This document shows, one piece after another, positions 5,747-33,854 of a stretch of DNA of 33,854 nucleotides (position 1 is its first letter; the number at the start of each line of letters is the position of its first letter). The notes under the pieces are model-generated. The model made no database searches. It saw nothing but the letters and a program-made list of their open reading frames with translations, and had not been told where the DNA came from. Both the position numbers and the translations under genes were made by a program. This stretch comes from a bacterium (GTDB lineage: Bacteria > Patescibacteriota > Patescibacteriia > JACPHY01), in contig JAUSKM010000001.1 in assembly GCA_030646955.1 (NCBI GenBank), positions 1-33,854 on the forward strand, in the 5' to 3' direction.

Positions 5747-5883
5747 CGCGAATGATGGGTTGTGTATGCGAGCACGAAACGAGCAGTGAAGAGGATGCGA
5801 CGGGATAGTGAGGAGAGGATAAGAAAGGTAATCCATGCATCCAGAACCGAGCAGCTACGGGCGGACGACTCGTTGCTTCCGCA

Positions 5884-6933
5884 TCACTCCTTCACCTGCC
5901 TCGTACTCATCCATACCGCATCGCTGCTACGCCGGTCAATGAGGAGGCCGGTGATGAGGCGGGAGGTGGGGAGCTTGCGGGTTTCCCAAGTGCGGCCGGA
6001 ATCCGACGTACGGTAGAACGTGGAGCGCGTGGCGTACACGATGCGATCACGATCTGCTGGGTCCACGGCTGCCGCGGTGATGGTGACAGATCCGGCTTCC
6101 GTGAGGAGCGGGATGGCCTCCCAGGTAGATCCTGCATCGCGTGAGCGCAGGAGGCCGTACTGCGATGCATGGATCAGCTCGCCCGGGCGCTCTGCCACCG
6201 GAACCACAACGCTCGTGTTGAACGCTGCGGGGAACGACTCCATGCCCTTGCGTAACGATTCCCATGTTGCGCCGCGCGTCATGCTGCGAAGCAATCCTTC
6301 GCGGCTGGTTACGGCAATGACGAAGCTACTGCCACCCGTGCGCACCGCGATGAGCTGCCGGATGGGATTCTCTGCGCGATGCATCGTGCGCCAGCTTGCG
6401 CCACTATCCGTACTCAACAGGATGTCGCCGCGCGAGTTACCCGCGTACACCACCGAGGGCGCGACGGGGTCCATCGCCAACGCGGTCATGGACACATTGG
6501 CCTCAAACACGCTGGAGTCCCAGTGGCGTCCGCAGTCCTTGGTCCGGTACACGCGCTGACCGCCGGCGATGATGATGGTACAGCGATCGGTTGGATGCAG
6601 CCCCACCGCGCTCGTGCGCGACTGCGCGAAGGATGATCCGAGGAGCTGCCACGATGCGCCGCCGTCCCACGACGCGTACGCGCCGTTGGCTTCCGTGGTT
6701 GTATAGAGCGCCAGCGGATCGTTGGGGTCCTGCGTAATCCCCAGAACGTTCACCGGCGCGAGCGACTGCCCGCCGCCCACGGAGAGCACCGCGCCACGTT
6801 GCTCCCACGCCTCACCGCGATCCTTGCTCAAGAAGATGCCGCCATCCGCGCCGCTACCGGAGAACGAGATGCACCCGGCGCCAAGGAACATCAGCGCAGC
6901 GACGGGAAGAGCGAGACGGGTAACGATGCGCAT
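5884..6933 (-). CDS. Lipoprotein with BNR/VPS10-type beta-propeller repeats
   Basis: A 349-residue exported lipoprotein. The N-terminus MRIVTRLALPVAALMF followed by LGAGC (Cys21) is a signal peptide with lipobox. The mature part carries repeated Asp-box/BNR motifs: SKDRGEAW, SWDGGASWQ, TKDCGRHWD, STDSGASWR, RSRDAGSTWE and TSDSGRTWE. This fits a sialidase/VPS10/Ycf48-like beta-propeller. Such propellers bind proteins or glycans, and the repeats alone do not imply hydrolase activity. The frame opens at 6951, but ATG 6933 gives a proper lipoprotein signal. The function is unknown. It sits between frr and the delta' gene with repeats on its upstream side. Confidence 0.85.
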   Translation of the reverse strand: MRIVTRLALPVAALMFLGAGCISFSGSGADGGIFLSKDRGEAWEQRGAVLSVGGGQSLAPVNVLGITQDPNDPLALYTTTEANGAYASWDGGASWQLLGSSFAQSRTSAVGLHPTDRCTIIIAGGQRVYRTKDCGRHWDSSVFEANVSMTALAMDPVAPSVVYAGNSRGDILLSTDSGASWRTMHRAENPIRQLIAVRTGGSSFVIAVTSREGLLRSMTRGATWESLRKGMESFPAAFNTSVVVPVAERPGELIHASQYGLLRSRDAGSTWEAIPLLTEAGSVTITAAAVDPADRDRIVYATRSTFYRTSDSGRTWETRKLPTSRLITGLLIDRRSSDAVWMSTRQVKE

Positions 6934-27376: not shown

Positions 27377-27452
27377 ACCGGCGTAGCTCAATTGGTAGAG
27401 TGTCGGTCTCCAAAACCGAATGCTGCAGGTTCGAGTCCTGTCGCCGGTGCCA
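27377..27452 (+). tRNA. tRNA-Trp (anticodon CCA), CCA end encoded
   Basis: Acceptor stem ACCGGCG/CGCCGGT, D arm GCTCAATTGGTAGAGT, anticodon stem TCGGT with loop CTCCAAA and ACCGA (anticodon CCA), T arm GCAGG-TTCGAGT-CCTGT, then GCCA. The length is 76 bases. The CCA end is in the DNA. It is the only RNA gene seen in the window. Confidence 0.97.
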
Positions 27453-27457
27453 GCCCA

Positions 27458-27488
27458 AGCCCTTCCCCTAACCAGGGAAGGGCTTTTC
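27458..27488 (+). terminator. Intrinsic terminator after tRNA-Trp
   Basis: AGCCCTTCCC (27458-27467), a 7-base loop, GGGAAGGGCT (27475-27484), then TTT. It begins 6 bases after the tRNA end. Confidence 0.9.
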
Positions 27489-27528
27489 TCATCGCGAGAT
27501 ACAAGCATCATCGCCCGAAAATACAACA

Positions 27529-28647
27529 TCAACGCAGCACCCGCATGCTCGCGAGAAGTGCCTCGTGCACTGCCCCATCCAGCGCGGGGTTTGCAGCAAC
27601 CACGTAGTACCGCGTGGGACCGTTGGCCGCACGGAAATCTGTTACCGTATGTCGCGCATTGCGCCACGCGGGTTGTTCTGCAAATGCGGAAACCTCGGAC
27701 TTTTTTTCGATGACGTAGCGGCGTGCGGCGTAGCTCCCCTGCCCCACCGTCAAGTCATACTGTTCGTGAATGGTTACCGTTGAGAGCGTTAAAAAATCCG
27801 ATGCATCAAAATAGCGAATGAGCACTTGCGAGCGTTCCCGCGCCGTACCGCCCCCATCAACGCGATAGAAATTGAGCGCTTGTATCGATGAAATGTACTC
27901 CACATCCCACCCGGGCGGCAGCGTGAAATCGAGCGCGAACACGTCCTTGCCCTGCGGGTCTGCCAGCGCGGCATACTGCGCCGACGCCGTATTCGCCGAA
28001 ACAGTCACCTCGTATTGCGCAAATACATCCGCTGGATTCAGCCATCGCGATACCGCGCGCGCATCGCGCTCGTACCCTTGAAGACGCACATCTTCACCCT
28101 GATAGAGCGCAAAATGCAAATGCCGCCGCTCACCGTCTGTCTCGCGTGAGCGATCATCACCCAAAACACCGATCACTTCTCCTTGTGCAACCACATCACC
28201 TGCGCGCACACGCACGCTTGCCATATCCAGGTGTCCGTAGATCGCATGCATCGCAACACCCGCTGCGGCAATGTCGTCATGCCGCACCACCATCACGCCA
28301 CCGTATCCCGCCACCCACCCCGCATACCGCACGGTGCCATCGGCAATGGCGCGCACCGGAACATCCCCGCGAACGTCCGGCAGTACCTCAAGATCTTCCG
28401 CTACGTGATATCCCGTAAATCGATCTCGAAAGTACTCCCCAAACCGCTTGTACGTTGGGAGGTAGGGTTCAACCGGCAACACCAACTGCGGAGCCACGAT
28501 CTCTGAAGCTCTCGCCGCAACTTCAGGAGCAGACATGCTCTGCTGATCATCCGATGCAGATGGCGTCTGTGGCGCGGGCTGGACACGGCAGCCAATGCCG
28601 AACATGAGCACCATTGCGATGATAATTCCTCGCACGATATTCTGCAT
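27529..28647 (-). CDS. M23/LytM-family peptidase lipoprotein
   Basis: A 372-residue lipoprotein. The signal MQNIVRGIIIAMVLM is followed by the lipobox FGIGC (Cys20). The LytM zinc peptidase domain (about residues 75-215) has H81xxxD85 in GYHVAEDLEV, the catalytic-region H139 in YGHLD, and HxH at 176-178 in RRHLHFALY. All three motifs of active peptidoglycan endopeptidases are present. The last 150 residues form an extra beta-rich domain (FALDFTLPPGWDVEYISS, YVIEKKSEVSAFAEQPAW) that I do not recognise. Likely role: cutting peptide cross-links in the cell wall from the outer face of the membrane. It converges with the tRNA-Trp terminator. Confidence 0.92.
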   Translation of the reverse strand: MQNIVRGIIIAMVLMFGIGCRVQPAPQTPSASDDQQSMSAPEVAARASEIVAPQLVLPVEPYLPTYKRFGEYFRDRFTGYHVAEDLEVLPDVRGDVPVRAIADGTVRYAGWVAGYGGVMVVRHDDIAAAGVAMHAIYGHLDMASVRVRAGDVVAQGEVIGVLGDDRSRETDGERRHLHFALYQGEDVRLQGYERDARAVSRWLNPADVFAQYEVTVSANTASAQYAALADPQGKDVFALDFTLPPGWDVEYISSIQALNFYRVDGGGTARERSQVLIRYFDASDFLTLSTVTIHEQYDLTVGQGSYAARRYVIEKKSEVSAFAEQPAWRNARHTVTDFRAANGPTRYYVVAANPALDGAVHEALLASMRVLR

Positions 28648-28670
28648 AAAATCGCCGCTTGTAAAAAGGC

Positions 28671-28706
28671 GTCATTGTCGCTCGCGGATTCGCTCCTCGC
28701 AATGAC
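28671..28706 (-). repeat. GTCATTGCGAGGAG dispersed repeat, copy 5 (compact palindrome)
   Basis: On the minus strand GTCATTGCGAGGAGCGAATC, then CGCGAGCGACAATGAC. The ends GTCATTG and CAATGAC are inverted, making a 36-base miniature of the longer element at 5030-5117. It fills the gap between the btpA-like and M23 genes. Confidence 0.75.
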
Positions 28707-28718
28707 GCGGGGTGTTTT

Positions 28719-29522
28719 TTATTGTACCGCACACATGAATACACGAACGCGCTCGCTGTCCACGGGCGTCTCCCATGGCGTGCGCAGGCGGTGTTCGGTG
28801 CGATCGTGTGCGCCACCGGCTTTCAGCGAAGTTCCAACGATGCACCCCGCGATGTGCGGCAGGTAGGACGCAATGTTTGCTGCCGTCATGCCGCTCCCGA
28901 TGAGGATCGGCACAGAGACAGCTGCATGCGCTTCTGCGACATCGGCCATCGCTGCGGGCTCGCCCGTCCACGTTCCGGTGATGATAATTGCATCCGCACC
29001 TGCGGCAGCTGCGGCACGCGCGGACTCCGCAATGGGGCGCGGCGCAAGCATCTGAGCATGCTTGACCTGAATATCCGCAAAGATACCAACACCCGCCGCA
29101 CCTGCAGCATCACGCGCGCGGATGACTGCCGCGGGATCGGCCTGGAACGTGCCGTACTGCGTTGCAACGCTATCAACAAACACGGGGACTCGGATCCACG
29201 ATGCACCAAATTCCGACGCAAACGCAAAAGCAGCAGGATAATCGTTCCACAGTAATGAAATACCAAAGGGCACCGAAAGATCACGCGTGAGTACGCCCAG
29301 GAGCGCGCGAAACTCCTGGCGTCGCGCATCATCCAGACGCTCGGTATGCGGAAAATCGTACATGTTCTCCACCATGATTCCCGAGATTCCGCCCGCGAGC
29401 AATGCATCGCGATCGGCAATGCCGCGCGCGCATACCGCGTCAAACGACACCGCTCCCTCACGGCCGACGAGCGGCGGAAGATGAACCATGCCGATGACGA
29501 GTGGTTGAGGAAATGAAAACAT
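28719..29522 (-). CDS. BtpA/SgcQ-family TIM-barrel protein
   Basis: A 267-residue (beta/alpha)8 protein. Family hallmarks: VIGMVHLPPLVG at the N-terminus, GISGIMVENMYDFPH, WIRVPVFVDSVATQYGTFQADPAAVIRAR, GIFADIQVKHAQML, and the phosphate-binding end ADAIIITGTWTGEP...VPILIGSGMTAANIASYL...GCIVGTSLKAGG. BtpA is needed for photosystem I stability in cyanobacteria, and SgcQ sits in a sugar operon; no reaction is established for the family. The standard phosphate-binding TIM-barrel end suggests a phosphosugar or phosphoribosyl substrate. ATG 29522 starts 5 bases after a perfect hairpin, with no Shine-Dalgarno sequence; ATG 29534 lies inside the hairpin. It follows the TrpD-like gene and may belong to its operon through read-through. 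Confidence 0.88.
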   Translation of the reverse strand: MFSFPQPLVIGMVHLPPLVGREGAVSFDAVCARGIADRDALLAGGISGIMVENMYDFPHTERLDDARRQEFRALLGVLTRDLSVPFGISLLWNDYPAAFAFASEFGASWIRVPVFVDSVATQYGTFQADPAAVIRARDAAGAAGVGIFADIQVKHAQMLAPRPIAESARAAAAAGADAIIITGTWTGEPAAMADVAEAHAAVSVPILIGSGMTAANIASYLPHIAGCIVGTSLKAGGAHDRTEHRLRTPWETPVDSERVRVFMCAVQ

Positions 29523-29526
29523 AGTG

Positions 29527-29555
29527 AAAGGCATCGGCTGAGCGCCGATGCCTTT
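29527..29555 (-). terminator. Hairpin between TrpD-like and BtpA-like genes
   Basis: AAAGGCATCGGC (29555-29544) pairs perfectly with GCCGATGCCTTT (29538-29527) around GCTCA, followed by CACTATGTTTTC. It is 35 bases past the TrpD-like stop. It may be a terminator with a weak U-tract, or an mRNA element that hides the BtpA start. Confidence 0.65.
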
Positions 29556-29589
29556 GGTATACCATGCACAAACGTCACGCGCGAGCGCG

Positions 29590-30957
29590 TTAGGTGCCAC
29601 AGAACGTGCCGCCGGTCGCCTGCACGTACCGCTTGAGGAGATCGAGCGCCCGCCCGTCGCCGATTGCCCTGCGGCACTCGTGGACGCACCCGCGGAGTGC
29701 GTCGAGGTTGGGCCCGCGACCCTCGCAGAATGCATCCTCATCCGCCATGTCCCGCGCCACGAAGAGCGCGAGCCCCGCGTTCATTGCGAGGTAATCGGTC
29801 AACGCCGGCACGCGTCCGGTGAGCGCATCGAGGTTCGCGCGCTGGAGCAGCGACGCGGTGTTCTCGATGCCAATGGCGCCGTTCATCGCGCCGATCCCGA
29901 AATCGGACAGGTGCATGAGATGACTCCCGACGTACGCGCCATCACGCACGAATGCGACCACCGAGGCGAACGGCGAGAGCTCATCGAGCACGGCATGGTC
30001 CTTCACCAGCCGCCGATCGCACACGCGATGCGCATCGATGTCCGCGTCCAACCCCGTGACGATCGCTGCGTTGCCGATGCGCTGCGCGCCGCATCCATGG
30101 ATGAGCTGGTACGCGAGCGCGACATCCTCGGGGTGCACCTTCTCGTTGACCCCCATCACCTTGTGAAGCGTCGCCTCCTTTGCCACCGGCGGCGTCATCG
30201 GTCCAATGAGATGGTTCACCGTTTCGTGACGTGGCGCGAGGTGCGAGAGGTCATGGATCGTCTTCACGACGTGCGCGTCGGTGTAACTGAACCCCGACCG
30301 CTCGAACACTGCCGCAAGGTCGGCCACGCGCCGGTGCTCGATGCGCGCTCCAAATCGCTCCACCGCGTCCGTCGAACCCACTGCAGACGTGTTTGCGTAC
30401 GAGCCGTGCTTCATCGTGGGGATGCCCAACGACGCGACGACGAGCGAGGAGAGCGTGGACGCGTTGATGACTTTGCGCGGCTTGTCGCGCGGCGGAAGCC
30501 CCAGGTCGCCACCGGTCCCGCACGTCTCGAGGACGCTTTCGGAGAACGGCATACGCACGACCAGATCCTGCATCGCCGCCGTCACCATGCCGGCAATCTC
30601 ACCGGGGGTGAGCTGTCCCCATGCCTCCTTCATGGCCATTCCGTTCAGGAACTCGCGGCCCGCGATGCGGCAATCCATGCCGTCGAGATCCGTGAAGTGC
30701 TGCTCGGTTGCCGCCGCGAACACGCGGTTCGTTGCGCGCAGCACGTAGCACATCCCCACAAACGCCTCATCGAAGGTGAGATCGCGACGCTTCATCGCGG
30801 CATCGATCTCACGGAATGACGTCGTAGGGAGCAGATGTTTCGCCGTTGCATGCGCGGCGCGGTCCATTGCATACTGCGCATCGCGTGCAAGCGCTTCCCG
30901 CGCCTCCTGTTTCGGCTGATACGCCGACCCCAACTCGATCTGCGAGATACCACCCAT
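29590..30957 (-). CDS. TrpD-like phosphoribosyltransferase (glycosyltransferase family 3 fold)
   Basis: 455 residues, longer than anthranilate phosphoribosyltransferase (about 340) mainly through an N-terminal extension of about 60. The PRPP/Mg site is kept: TCGTGGD (146-151), INAST (164-168) and KHGSYANTSAVGSTD (183-197, against KHGNR..SS.SGSAD in TrpD). The C-terminal half also follows TrpD (HLAPRHETVNHLIGPMTPP, AIGIENTASLL, GRALDLLKRYVQATGG). Acceptor-side residues differ: the Asn-Arg of KHGNR are Ser-Tyr, and the GLDE Glu is Ala (GLDADID). So it probably transfers phosphoribose to something other than anthranilate, or uses a nucleoside; the nucleoside phosphorylase branch (DeoA) is a weaker match. 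GAGGAGG lies 7 bases before ATG 30957. It follows the aminotransferase by 30 bases in one operon. Confidence 0.85.
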   Translation of the reverse strand: MGGISQIELGSAYQPKQEAREALARDAQYAMDRAAHATAKHLLPTTSFREIDAAMKRRDLTFDEAFVGMCYVLRATNRVFAAATEQHFTDLDGMDCRIAGREFLNGMAMKEAWGQLTPGEIAGMVTAAMQDLVVRMPFSESVLETCGTGGDLGLPPRDKPRKVINASTLSSLVVASLGIPTMKHGSYANTSAVGSTDAVERFGARIEHRRVADLAAVFERSGFSYTDAHVVKTIHDLSHLAPRHETVNHLIGPMTPPVAKEATLHKVMGVNEKVHPEDVALAYQLIHGCGAQRIGNAAIVTGLDADIDAHRVCDRRLVKDHAVLDELSPFASVVAFVRDGAYVGSHLMHLSDFGIGAMNGAIGIENTASLLQRANLDALTGRVPALTDYLAMNAGLALFVARDMADEDAFCEGRGPNLDALRGCVHECRRAIGDGRALDLLKRYVQATGGTFCGT

Positions 30958-30987
30958 GGGAACCCTCCTCTTTCGTTTTCCGTATCC

Positions 30988-32130
30988 TCACACCGATGAT
31001 GCCTGCACGCTGCCGAGCAGCGCGATACGCCGACAAAGCTCATCCGCCTCCGGTTGCGGCACCACGCGCAGACGACAGAACGCGTCGTTCCATTCGGGGT
31101 GCGTCTTTTGAAACCCACGCCCGACGGCAACCGCGACACCGACCGCTGCAAATGCCGCACCAAGGTCACGTCCGGGGTCATGCAACGCCATCGTGAGCGT
31201 TGCCGGATGCGTGGGAAGCACCTGAAGGCCCGCGTGTGCGCACGCGTCCATGATGCGTTGCTTCACCGACCGCACGTTGTACCGTACGCCTGCAAGAAAT
31301 CCGTGATCAGAAAGCGCGGCGCGCGCCACGTGCGTACTGTACGCAGACGGCTCGAACGGCACGTCTAGCTGCCGATAGAACTCCGCAATGGGAGCAGCAC
31401 ACGCCATGTACCCGATGCGCGCCCCTGCAAGTCCAAGCCCCTTGGAGAACGCGCGCATGACGATCACATTGTTGTACGCAGACACCAGATGCATCGCCGA
31501 TTCGGCATCGGGCACGGTGTCCGCAAACGCCTCATCGATGAGCATGATGGTCCCGTGCGGTGCTGCTGCATCGACGTACTCCCGCACCTGCTCAAGTGAC
31601 AGGAACAACCCCGTAGGGTTGTTCGGGTTGTCGAGGTAGCACATGCTGTACGCACCCGATGCGAGGCTCCGCACCATCGCATCGTGCGGGAACGTGTACG
31701 GCGGCTCTGCACGGATACGCATCGTCCGGTAGACACCGCCCGCAGCGATGAACTCGGACGGAATCTCGTTAAACTGCGGGCCGATGCCGAGCAACGCCTC
31801 CGGCTGCGCCAGCTTGTGGATGATGCGCTCCGCCAGGTTGAAGCTCCCATGTCCGAAGAAGAGCTGCTCCCGCTTGATGTTCGCATCCGCAAATCGTACA
31901 AGGATCGCCGGCGCGAGCGTCGCATCAGGATAGCGATCCGGATAGCGCATGAGTGACGCAACATCGAATGCTGCATGTGCTTCACGCACCGATACCGGAA
32001 ACCCGAATGGGCTGCTGCCCGAATCGCAGTTGATGGGAGCGAACTCCGGATTGAGCACCAGCTGCACGCCGAGGCGCGTATCACGCTGATACGCCAGAAC
32101 CTGCGACCGAATACGCAATGGTTTTATCAT
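30988..32130 (-). CDS. Class I/II PLP aminotransferase, HisC-like
   Basis: A 380-residue fold-type I aminotransferase related to histidinol-phosphate aminotransferase and CobD. PLP-site residues are clear: DNPNNPTG (Asn171), LIDEAFAD (Asp199) and the Schiff-base lysine in RAFSKGLGLAGARIGY (Lys230). The C-terminal Arg for the substrate carboxylate is probably in CRLRVVPQ. The N-terminal FGFPVSV and the RYPD motif resemble HisC. No other histidine gene is nearby, so an aromatic or amino-phosphate substrate is possible. ATG 32130 is fixed by GGAGG 6 bases upstream; the frame runs back to 32145. The leader of about 225 bases holds a Trp-codon attenuator, so expression probably responds to charged tRNA-Trp. 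Confidence 0.92.
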   Translation of the reverse strand: MIKPLRIRSQVLAYQRDTRLGVQLVLNPEFAPINCDSGSSPFGFPVSVREAHAAFDVASLMRYPDRYPDATLAPAILVRFADANIKREQLFFGHGSFNLAERIIHKLAQPEALLGIGPQFNEIPSEFIAAGGVYRTMRIRAEPPYTFPHDAMVRSLASGAYSMCYLDNPNNPTGLFLSLEQVREYVDAAAPHGTIMLIDEAFADTVPDAESAMHLVSAYNNVIVMRAFSKGLGLAGARIGYMACAAPIAEFYRQLDVPFEPSAYSTHVARAALSDHGFLAGVRYNVRSVKQRIMDACAHAGLQVLPTHPATLTMALHDPGRDLGAAFAAVGVAVAVGRGFQKTHPEWNDAFCRLRVVPQPEADELCRRIALLGSVQASSV

Positions 32131-32160
32131 TGTCAACCTCCACATTCATCTTTCGTGATG

Positions 32161-32212
32161 ACGCGCCAGCGCGCGCACCACCCATGGAAAAGGGCTTGCT
32201 GTGCTGGCGCGT
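32161..32212 (-). promoter_or_regulatory. Second leader hairpin upstream of the aminotransferase
   Basis: ACGCGCCAGC (32212-32203) pairs perfectly with GCTGGCGCGT (32170-32161) across a 32-base loop. It stands 20 bases upstream of the GGAGG ribosome binding site, downstream of the attenuator. Confidence 0.5.
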
Positions 32213-32251
32213 ACGCACGCAAGATGCGCACACGCCAGAACAACACGCAAA

Positions 32252-32321
32252 CACTCCCCGATGGCCGGGGAGTGCGTTGGAGATACAGACAACGCGCACC
32301 GCCGACCCCGTTACCGGAGCC
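32252..32321 (-). promoter_or_regulatory. Transcription attenuator with mutually exclusive hairpins
   Basis: Four segments follow the Trp codons. Segment 1, GGCTCCG (32321-32315), pairs through a GTAA loop with CGGGGTC of segment 2 (32310-32304). Segment 2 continues to GTGCGCGTTG (32299-32290). Segment 3, CAACGCACTCCCCG (32279-32266), can pair with segment 2 twice: GTGCG..TTG with CAACGCAC, and CGGGG with CCCCG. Segment 4, CGGGGAGTG (32260-32252), pairs with CACTCCCCG of segment 3 to form a 9-bp terminator stem, followed by TTTGCGTGTTGTTCT. Thus 1:2 plus 3:4 excludes 2:3, as in trp operons. The U-tract is imperfect. Confidence 0.7.
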
Positions 32322-32355
32322 GCCACCAAGACGCAATGTTTCGCGCTGCGCTCAT
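32311..32355 (-). CDS. Leader peptide with tandem Trp codons
   Basis: ATG 32355 opens a 14-codon frame encoding MSAARNIASWWRLR and ending in TAA at 32313-32311. Two adjacent TGG codons are at positions 10-11. They sit just before segment 1 of the attenuator, and the stop codon lies in the loop of the 1:2 hairpin. A ribosome waiting at the Trp codons would cover segment 1 and free segment 2 for antitermination. The -10 box ends 9 bases before the ATG, so the mRNA is nearly or fully leaderless. The arrangement matches trp leader peptides of other bacteria in size and logic, although the downstream genes are not a standard trp operon. Confidence 0.72.
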   Translation of the reverse strand: MSAARNIASWWRLR

Positions 32356-32364
32356 ACTAAACAC

Positions 32365-32392
32365 AGCGTATGCGAACGCATGGCGCTGTCAA
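32365..32392 (-). promoter_or_regulatory. Promoter of the aminotransferase/TrpD-like operon
   Basis: TTGACA (32392-32387), a 16-base spacer and TACGCT (32370-32365). Transcription should start near 32358, three bases before the leader-peptide ATG. It lies between the terminator of the upstream decarboxylase gene and the attenuator. Confidence 0.7.
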
Positions 32393-32434
32393 ATGACACA
32401 CGCAGCGCTCCGGCCAAGGGCGGACAAATGATAT

Positions 32435-32461
32435 ACAGCCCCGACACCTTGTCGGGGCTGT
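32435..32461 (-). terminator. Intrinsic terminator of the PLP decarboxylase gene
   Basis: ACAGCCCCGAC (32461-32451) pairs perfectly with GTCGGGGCTGT (32445-32435), followed by ATATCATTT. It lies 16 bases after the stop codon. Confidence 0.85.
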
Positions 32462-32476
32462 GCAACTGCTATACAA

Positions 32477-33854
32477 CTATCGTCGCCGTCGCTGCCACTC
32501 GTTCCGCGCCCGCGCGAGGTCCCGTACGAAGTCCTTGAAATCATCCGACCGCACGTGCGGCCAGAGACAGAACTTGTAGACCTTCACCGGACAGCTCCGC
32601 GGATCCGATGGATCACCCGGGGAGAGATCACTCCGGAGCTGGTACGGCTCCAAGAGCGGCGTCTCGGGAATGCAGCCCTGCTGCTCGTCCAACGCGATGA
32701 TCGCGGGCAGAATGTTGACGTACTCGCTCATCGGCAACAAGCGCACCCACCCCGCAAACTCCTGGCCCGAGAGCTTCCGCCGCAGCAAGGCACGCGTGCG
32801 CATGCACGCCGCAACGTATTCGTGCTGCTCCTGCCGCCCGCCCCGAATGTTGTACCACGCCAACACCGGCGCCACGCACGTGCGCGAGCCCGAGACCGTA
32901 TCATCCCGATGGCCGCTGATGTACGGAACGTCACGCGTGATGTGCTGCTGGAGTCCCTTCCGGCACAGGAACACGCCGCCAGGGTACGGCAGACGCCCCA
33001 TCTTGTCCCCGTCCATCGTCACCGACATGACCTCGGGGATATCGAAGCCGAACGAGGGGAAGTCGCGTCCCGGATGTGCAATGATCTCATCCTCCGAACG
33101 CACGAACGGCGCCGTGAAGCCGCCGATGGATGCATCCACGTGGAGGTAGCACTGTGCGCGCGCCGAACGGTGCACGCGCGTACGGATGAACTCGGCGATG
33201 CGCCGCACGGGGTCCACGGCTCCCATGACTGTCGTCCCGACGGTCGCCACGATAATGAACCGCCGGAATCCCTCTTCGTACTTCAGCTCGAAGACGCGCT
33301 GGAGATCGCCGTACGGGAGTCGCTTGGTAGTGTCCGCATCGCCCGGCTGCTTGGGGCCGTACGGCCCCTGTCCCACATCCATTTCTCCCTTCAGGGTCAT
33401 GCCAACCAGCGTGATCCCCGCGCCGCTCGGATCCGCGACGAAGATGTGCGGCTCCCCGCAGTTCGGACACGCGCTCGCGCGGGATTGTCCAATGTCGAGC
33501 AGCGCTGTGGCCTTGTGCACCGAGTAGTGCGTCGCAGCGGTGCAGAGCACCGCAATGCCACGGTCCATCGTATCGCGGAACTGGCGCAACCACTCCCGCC
33601 CGATCCATGTACCCATCAGGTTCCCTTCGGTTCCGCCGCCGCAGTAGTAGCCGTCCACTCGCGTCGGTACATGCACGATCCGCTCGTCCGGTGTGCCCGG
33701 ATGGTTGGAGATGGCATCCGCGGTCTGGAAAATCGCTTCACGTTCCAGTGCATGCGTCTGCTCGAACCCTGCTTCCGGATCGGCATCGTCTCCACGCGTC
33801 TGGGTGCCAATCTGATTCACCTGCTTTGCGACAAGCCGCCCGAGTACCGCGTCC
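32477..33854 (-). CDS. Group II PLP-dependent amino acid decarboxylase (5' end off window)
   Basis: The frame is open through the right edge (codons before GTG 33820 read DAVLGRLVAKQ), so the N-terminus is outside the window and at least 459 residues are visible. Group II decarboxylase motifs: GYYCGGGTEGNLMG, THYSVHKA (His stacking on PLP), HVDASIGGFTAPF (Asp of the PLP ring), and SVTMDGDKMGRLPYPGGVFL with the PLP lysine. The pattern is closest to histidine/glutamate/aromatic decarboxylases; the substrate cannot be assigned. An insert with CPNC (ASACPNCGEPHI, lone Cys pair) is unusual. It makes an amine and CO2 in the cytosol. It has its own terminator, so it is a separate transcript from the aminotransferase operon. 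Confidence 0.88.
   Translation of the reverse strand, partial: DAVLGRLVAKQVNQIGTQTRGDDADPEAGFEQTHALEREAIFQTADAISNHPGTPDERIVHVPTRVDGYYCGGGTEGNLMGTWIGREWLRQFRDTMDRGIAVLCTAATHYSVHKATALLDIGQSRASACPNCGEPHIFVADPSGAGITLVGMTLKGEMDVGQGPYGPKQPGDADTTKRLPYGDLQRVFELKYEEGFRRFIIVATVGTTVMGAVDPVRRIAEFIRTRVHRSARAQCYLHVDASIGGFTAPFVRSEDEIIAHPGRDFPSFGFDIPEVMSVTMDGDKMGRLPYPGGVFLCRKGLQQHITRDVPYISGHRDDTVSGSRTCVAPVLAWYNIRGGRQEQHEYVAACMRTRALLRRKLSGQEFAGWVRLLPMSEYVNILPAIIALDEQQGCIPETPLLEPYQLRSDLSPGDPSDPRSCPVKVYKFCLWPHVRSDDFKDFVRDLARARNEWQRRRR

Follow-up and report, generated by a model that had tools for sequence, protein, structure and literature searches.

The attenuation decision in the trpL leader of E. coli is kinetic. 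Leader-peptide attenuators have also been described in Actinobacteria, among them those of C. glutamicum trpE and ilvBNC and of Streptomyces trp (PMC1262725, PMC4046766). The C. glutamicum ilvBNC leader peptide is made without a ribosome binding site, according to Morbach 2000 as cited in PMC4046766. A literature search, with subscription journals mostly outside its reach, returned no description of T-boxes or leader-peptide attenuators in Patescibacteria, a weak negative. The mechanism class is therefore known; the phylum, the target operon and the replacement of one sensor by another are new as far as was found. The locus compared here with these systems lies in a window of 33,854 nt, the whole stretch of DNA analysed. 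A minus-strand gap of 346 nt between the end of a decarboxylase gene (32477) and the start of an aminotransferase gene (32130) most likely holds a ribosome-mediated Trp transcription attenuator of the aminotransferase - TrpD-like - BtpA operon, in the syntenic position that a Trp T-box occupies in relatives, as judged from sequence and modelled folds.

Read along the minus strand, the gap contains a terminator-like hairpin, a TTGACA element with a weak TACGCT, a 14-codon ORF (MSAARNIASWWRLR) and three competing RNA pairings (Table 1). The first hairpin (32435-32461) is a probable terminator separating the decarboxylase gene from the leader. The original prediction had placed a TTGACA promoter about 3 bases before a 14-codon peptide with tandem Trp codons; both elements were present, though the -10 was weak. 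TACGCT was the best -10 candidate, yet it gave just 3/6 consensus matches, and a standard promoter scan did not pick up the TTGACA-16-TACGCT site. Similar promoters, TTGACA/TTGACG-16/17-TAnnnT (TTGACA-17-TACGTT in L056), were found at the T-box leaders of orthologs, in a layout matching that of the window leader. The tandem Trp codons are codons 10-11 (32328-32323), so that this short ORF (32355-32311), near a putative promoter, has the clustered cognate codons typical of the attenuator class. A Shine-Dalgarno site was not found before the leader ATG; the aminotransferase and TrpD-like genes do have one. The 5' UTR of the leader transcript would be about 2-3 nt, and the transcript is thus probably leaderless. 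The ilvBNC peptide, as it is reported in PMC4046766, is a precedent for such translation.

Table 1. Features of the leader region and its neighbourhood in the window; free energies are predicted values.
Feature	Position	Strand	Details
PLP-dependent decarboxylase gene, upstream of leader	32477..33853	-	PF00282; cut by window end
Hairpin, putative terminator dividing decarboxylase gene from leader	32435..32461	-	12-bp stem, tail ATATCATTTG
Putative promoter	32365..32392	-	-35 TTGACA 32392-32387, 16-nt spacer, -10 TACGCT 32370-32365
Leader peptide ORF MSAARNIASWWRLR	32311..32355	-	ATG at 32355, UAA 32313-32311, 14 residues
Hairpin 1:2	32303..32322	-	CGGCUCCG-GUAA-CGGGGUCG; segment 1 32322-32315, segment 2 32310-32303; -14.9 kcal/mol
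Antiterminator 2:3	32266..32310	-	32310-32290 pairs with 32279-32266; excludes both 1:2 and 3:4
Terminator hairpin 3:4 and tail	32237..32275	-	stem 32275-32266 with 32260-32251; tail UUGCGUGUUGUUCU
Second hairpin, between attenuator and aminotransferase gene	32196..32244	-	-34.5 kcal/mol
Class I/II aminotransferase gene (HisC/CobD-like), first after leader	30988..32130	-	PF00155, E 2.8e-31; SD GGAGG
TrpD-like phosphoribosyltransferase gene, conserved operon core	29590..30957	-	PF00591; TIGR01245 92 bits, trpD cut-off 199
BtpA/SgcQ-family TIM-barrel protein gene, TrpD-like partner	28719..29543	-	PF03437, E 1.9e-50
tRNA-Trp, anticodon CCA, 1.3 kb past btpA	27377..27452	+	ARAGORN

The segments were likewise found as first described, with pairings 1:2, 3:4 and 2:3 and the UAA stop codon within the loop of hairpin 1:2. 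Hairpin 3:4 reads GCACUCCCCG-GCCAU-CGGGGAGUGU (32275-32251, minus strand; predicted -18.9 kcal/mol). In the modelled structures, 1:2 and 3:4 are exclusive of 2:3, the control codons lie at segment 1 and the stop codon lies between segments 1 and 2. Ribosome-free leader RNA was predicted to fold as 1:2 (-14.9 kcal/mol) plus 3:4. Once a ribosome was modelled on the Trp codons, 2:3 became the minimum-energy nascent fold, at -15.0 kcal/mol at the end of segment 3 and -25.6 kcal/mol just before segment 4 was finished; 3:4 won once segment 4 was complete. With a ribosome placed at the stop codon, 3:4 was predicted to form. E. coli trpL served as positive control in the same truncation folding series and gave 2:3 at -15.6 kcal/mol followed by a switch to 3:4. 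Folding with and without segment 1 blocked, which had been proposed as a check, thus produced a switch in the predicted folds like that of the control. In the complete leader with a stalled ribosome, 3:4 still had the lowest predicted energy over the majority of lengths; as in E. coli, then, the switch has to be kinetic.

We infer the following course of events. Transcription would begin 2-3 nt ahead of the leader ATG, giving a nearly leaderless transcript onto which a ribosome would load. With charged tRNA-Trp in ample supply, the ribosome would reach UAA and segment 2 would be covered or kept in 1:2; with segment 2 unavailable, 3:4 would form and transcription would stop near 32240-32250. 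If charged tRNA-Trp ran short, the ribosome would stall on UGG-UGG and cover segment 1, 2:3 would form before segment 4 was made, and the polymerase would read through.

The 3:4 stem is strong (-18.9 kcal/mol), its tail UUGCGUGUUGUUCU is U-poor, and the hairpin was overlooked by a simple terminator scan. A further hairpin of -13.0 kcal/mol precedes the aminotransferase SD, and together with the second hairpin of Table 1 it spans 32244-32157. Copies of the second hairpin (32196-32244) were not found elsewhere in the genome, and the region is not a repeat element. The weak U-tract behind 3:4 and the presence of two strong hairpins (-34.5 and -13.0 kcal/mol) immediately ahead of the SD would suit a leader acting on translation, mRNA decay or Rho access instead of intrinsic termination, with the hairpins at 32244-32157 as effectors. 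Such a mode of action is considered improbable, since transcription attenuation directly accounts for the exclusivity of 1:2, 2:3 and 3:4 and for the position of the WW codons. Moreover, a similarly U-poor tail, UGUUGCGUU, follows the hairpin after rplL (19788, minus strand), and tails of this kind may suffice for termination in this genome.

Chance occurrence was assessed at two scales. Of the three short ORFs in the window with WW close to the stop, MSAARNIASWWRLR alone was followed by a hairpin of -18 kcal/mol or stronger. Markov-1 sequences of window length (n=20) contained a mean of 0.9 WW ORFs near a stop, and 0/20 had such a hairpin. In 20,000 local resamples, which took segment boundaries from the observed structure and therefore give figures that somewhat favour it, the observed level was reached for 1:2 in 0.1%, for 3:4 in 0.03% and for 2:3 in 16%, and for all three together in 0; 2:3 alone is accordingly not unusual. 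These results bear on the idea that the WW mini-ORF is accidental, that the hairpins are ordinary terminator or mRNA-stability elements in a GC-rich gap and that expression of the operon is either constitutive or under some other control. In favour of this idea, chance alone yields roughly one short ORF per window with WW close to its stop codon, both the U-tract and the -10 are weak, a Shine-Dalgarno site is lacking and 2:3 is unexceptional by itself. Set against this, WW plus the stop in the 1:2 loop plus a strong 3:4 were never reached together in the resamples, and both the amino acid and the position fit the T-box control by Trp seen in 11/11 readable orthologs (below). An accidental ORF is therefore rated unlikely, though the least so of the alternatives considered; chance does not readily produce the combination of WW peptide and hairpins.

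The window genome is of the metagenome-assembled type (1.03 Mb, 94% complete). The genes behind the leader had been said not to form a standard trp operon, which was borne out: trpB was not found in this incomplete assembly and the TrpD-like protein scored under the trpD cut-off. With trpB missing, the bacterium is probably unable to make tryptophan, i.e. a Trp auxotroph, which makes a biosynthetic role for the operon unlikely; that it salvages or modifies tryptophan is a guess. The trpS gene was also not found in the incomplete assembly. The contig break appears to fall within the decarboxylase gene, and since trpS adjoins that gene in L054 and L057, the missing copy probably lies just past the break. 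The closest solved structures to the decarboxylase are histidine and tyrosine decarboxylases. The aminotransferase met no curated equivalog cut-off, and a genome-collection scan gave no ortholog of it; 57 relatives yielded weak paralogs only. A perfect hairpin, GGCATCGGC-GCTCA-GCCGATGCC followed by TTT (29552-29530, minus strand), was observed at the TrpD-like/BtpA junction, where it overlaps possible BtpA starts and could be an internal terminator or control the RBS. The hisS and glyS genes in the window were without a cognate-rich leader peptide.

Orthologs of the TrpD-like protein (38-46% identity) were present in Uhrbacteria, Magasanikbacteria, an Azambacteria record, WWE3 and other Patescibacteria. 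In nearly every orthologous locus a BtpA gene adjoined or lay close to the TrpD-like gene, and a decarboxylase relative and trpS were often near. Across L053-L064, in bacteria that may lack Trp synthesis, trpS, tRNA-Trp, PLP decarboxylase, TrpD-like and BtpA genes make up a conserved tryptophan island, to which some loci add, as judged by eye, EamA-like transporter, AstE/ASPA-like deacylase or PfkB-like genes. A tRNA-Trp gene was near the cluster in seven orthologous loci (L054, L055, L056, L057, L062, L063 and L064). In L063, a tRNA-like sequence with an enlarged middle, not called by ARAGORN, lies at ~5840-5960 between the T-box and the TrpD-like gene.

Among the distinct orthologs, every one of the 11 whose leader could be read had a T-box (RF00230) directly upstream of the TrpD-like gene. 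Scores above the gathering score of 93 were obtained for L056 (94.8 bits) and L057 (94.3 bits), followed by L034 (90.0), L035 (83.7), L069 (74.3), L067 (66.4), L068 (65.8), L033 (57.8), L064 (45.7), L059 (40.3) and L063 (36.2). A custom model built from five of these T-boxes found the remaining six at 35-71 bits, which supports the sub-threshold ones. UGG was at the specifier position in all 11, the specifier in the compact stem I forms (L059, L063, L064, L067-L069) being assigned by inspection, and the T-box bulge was mostly UGGC, matching the discriminator G of local tRNA-Trp genes. The twelfth ortholog, L062, has a short gap before the TrpD-like gene without a T-box, and its contig begins within the decarboxylase gene. 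A compact stem I was observed in several Patescibacteria T-box leaders of the tRNA-Trp type, and of 192 genomes sampled in the class to which the window belongs, 62 had T-box matches (E up to 1e-5).

The original prediction had named orthologous leaders without the WW peptide as evidence against it, and taken literally this is what was found: the peptide is missing from them. They carry Trp T-boxes with UGG instead. These T-boxes independently confirm, at the level of sequence, that the gene set is tryptophan-controlled. The downstream genes appear to be Trp-related, their orthologs lying under Trp T-boxes and being linked to tRNA-Trp and trpS. Together with the anatomy, the switching folds and the chance tests, the ortholog T-boxes support the interpretation of the leader as a Trp attenuator.

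Because the orthologous leaders are tRNA-Trp T-boxes, and faint local similarity can be seen by eye (AGTA...GAGCG...GAAAC, GGGTGGTGCGCGCG), the leader might be a diverged T-box that still binds tRNA-Trp, with the peptide as a by-product. RF00230 however gave no match in the leader (E up to 5) or anywhere in the window genome assembly, and the best leader fragment with the custom model, filters off, scored 3.5 bits, whereas the same model recovers six T-boxes outside its training at 35-71 bits. The degenerate T-box reading was rejected on these negative searches and is regarded as very improbable. The Trp_leader family, RF00513, had no match in the leader at E up to 5 and none in its own genome. 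Across 192 genomes of the class it gave sub-threshold matches only, many of them on both strands (palindromic hairpins), which were treated as noise.

Gene order in L054/L060 and L057 is trpS - decarboxylase - T-box - TrpD-like - BtpA. The window leader, in the gap between decarboxylase and TrpD-like genes, thus occupies the T-box position. From this shared syntenic place the attenuator appears to be a functional substitute for the tRNA-Trp T-box of the relatives. We moderately favour the view that a T-box was replaced in situ by a leader-peptide attenuator in a bacterium without trpB, with Trp control of a Trp island kept; the island may salvage or modify tryptophan. On this view the island comprises the decarboxylase, aminotransferase, TrpD-like, BtpA, tRNA-Trp and trpS genes, of which the window holds 27377-33853. 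Replacement would keep the signal, tRNA-Trp charging, and change the sensor. The T-box would be the older state, a direction suggested solely by its presence in all other readable orthologs. The two nearest relatives were without TrpD-like and decarboxylase genes, i.e. without the operon, which may have been acquired horizontally; their trpS loci had no sense-strand WW leader upstream of trpS. A second genome with the same leader was not found among the relatives searched, and the evidence for the leader comes from one genome.

If correct, this brings Patescibacteria within the range of classical Trp attenuation and provides a clean case of one tRNA-Trp sensor swapped for another at one syntenic site. 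It would also mean that streamlined bacteria without trpB retain tight Trp control of a conserved gene set. The Trp T-boxes offer a handle on the role of TrpD-like/BtpA, expression of which should rise when tryptophan is short.

The window leader and E. coli trpL (RF00513) both encode a 14-residue peptide in which Arg follows the Trp residues of codons 10-11; in both, the stop codon falls within the loop of 1:2, the pairings 1:2/3:4 and 2:3 exclude each other, and the folding series gave the same behaviour. The window leader differs in that it lacks an Rfam match and a Shine-Dalgarno site, has no sequence homology other than WWR and carries a U-poor terminator tail, and its operon is without trp biosynthetic genes proper, in a genome without trpB. 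Actinobacterial trp attenuators share GC-rich terminators and tandem Trp codons with it (PMC1262725), but they belong to a different phylum, no homology to them is shown, and they control real biosynthetic operons. The Trp T-boxes of the orthologs (RF00230) bind uncharged tRNA directly, whereas the window leader would use a translated peptide; with the window leader they share the downstream genes, the syntenic site, the amino acid signal, the promoter layout and the terminator decision.
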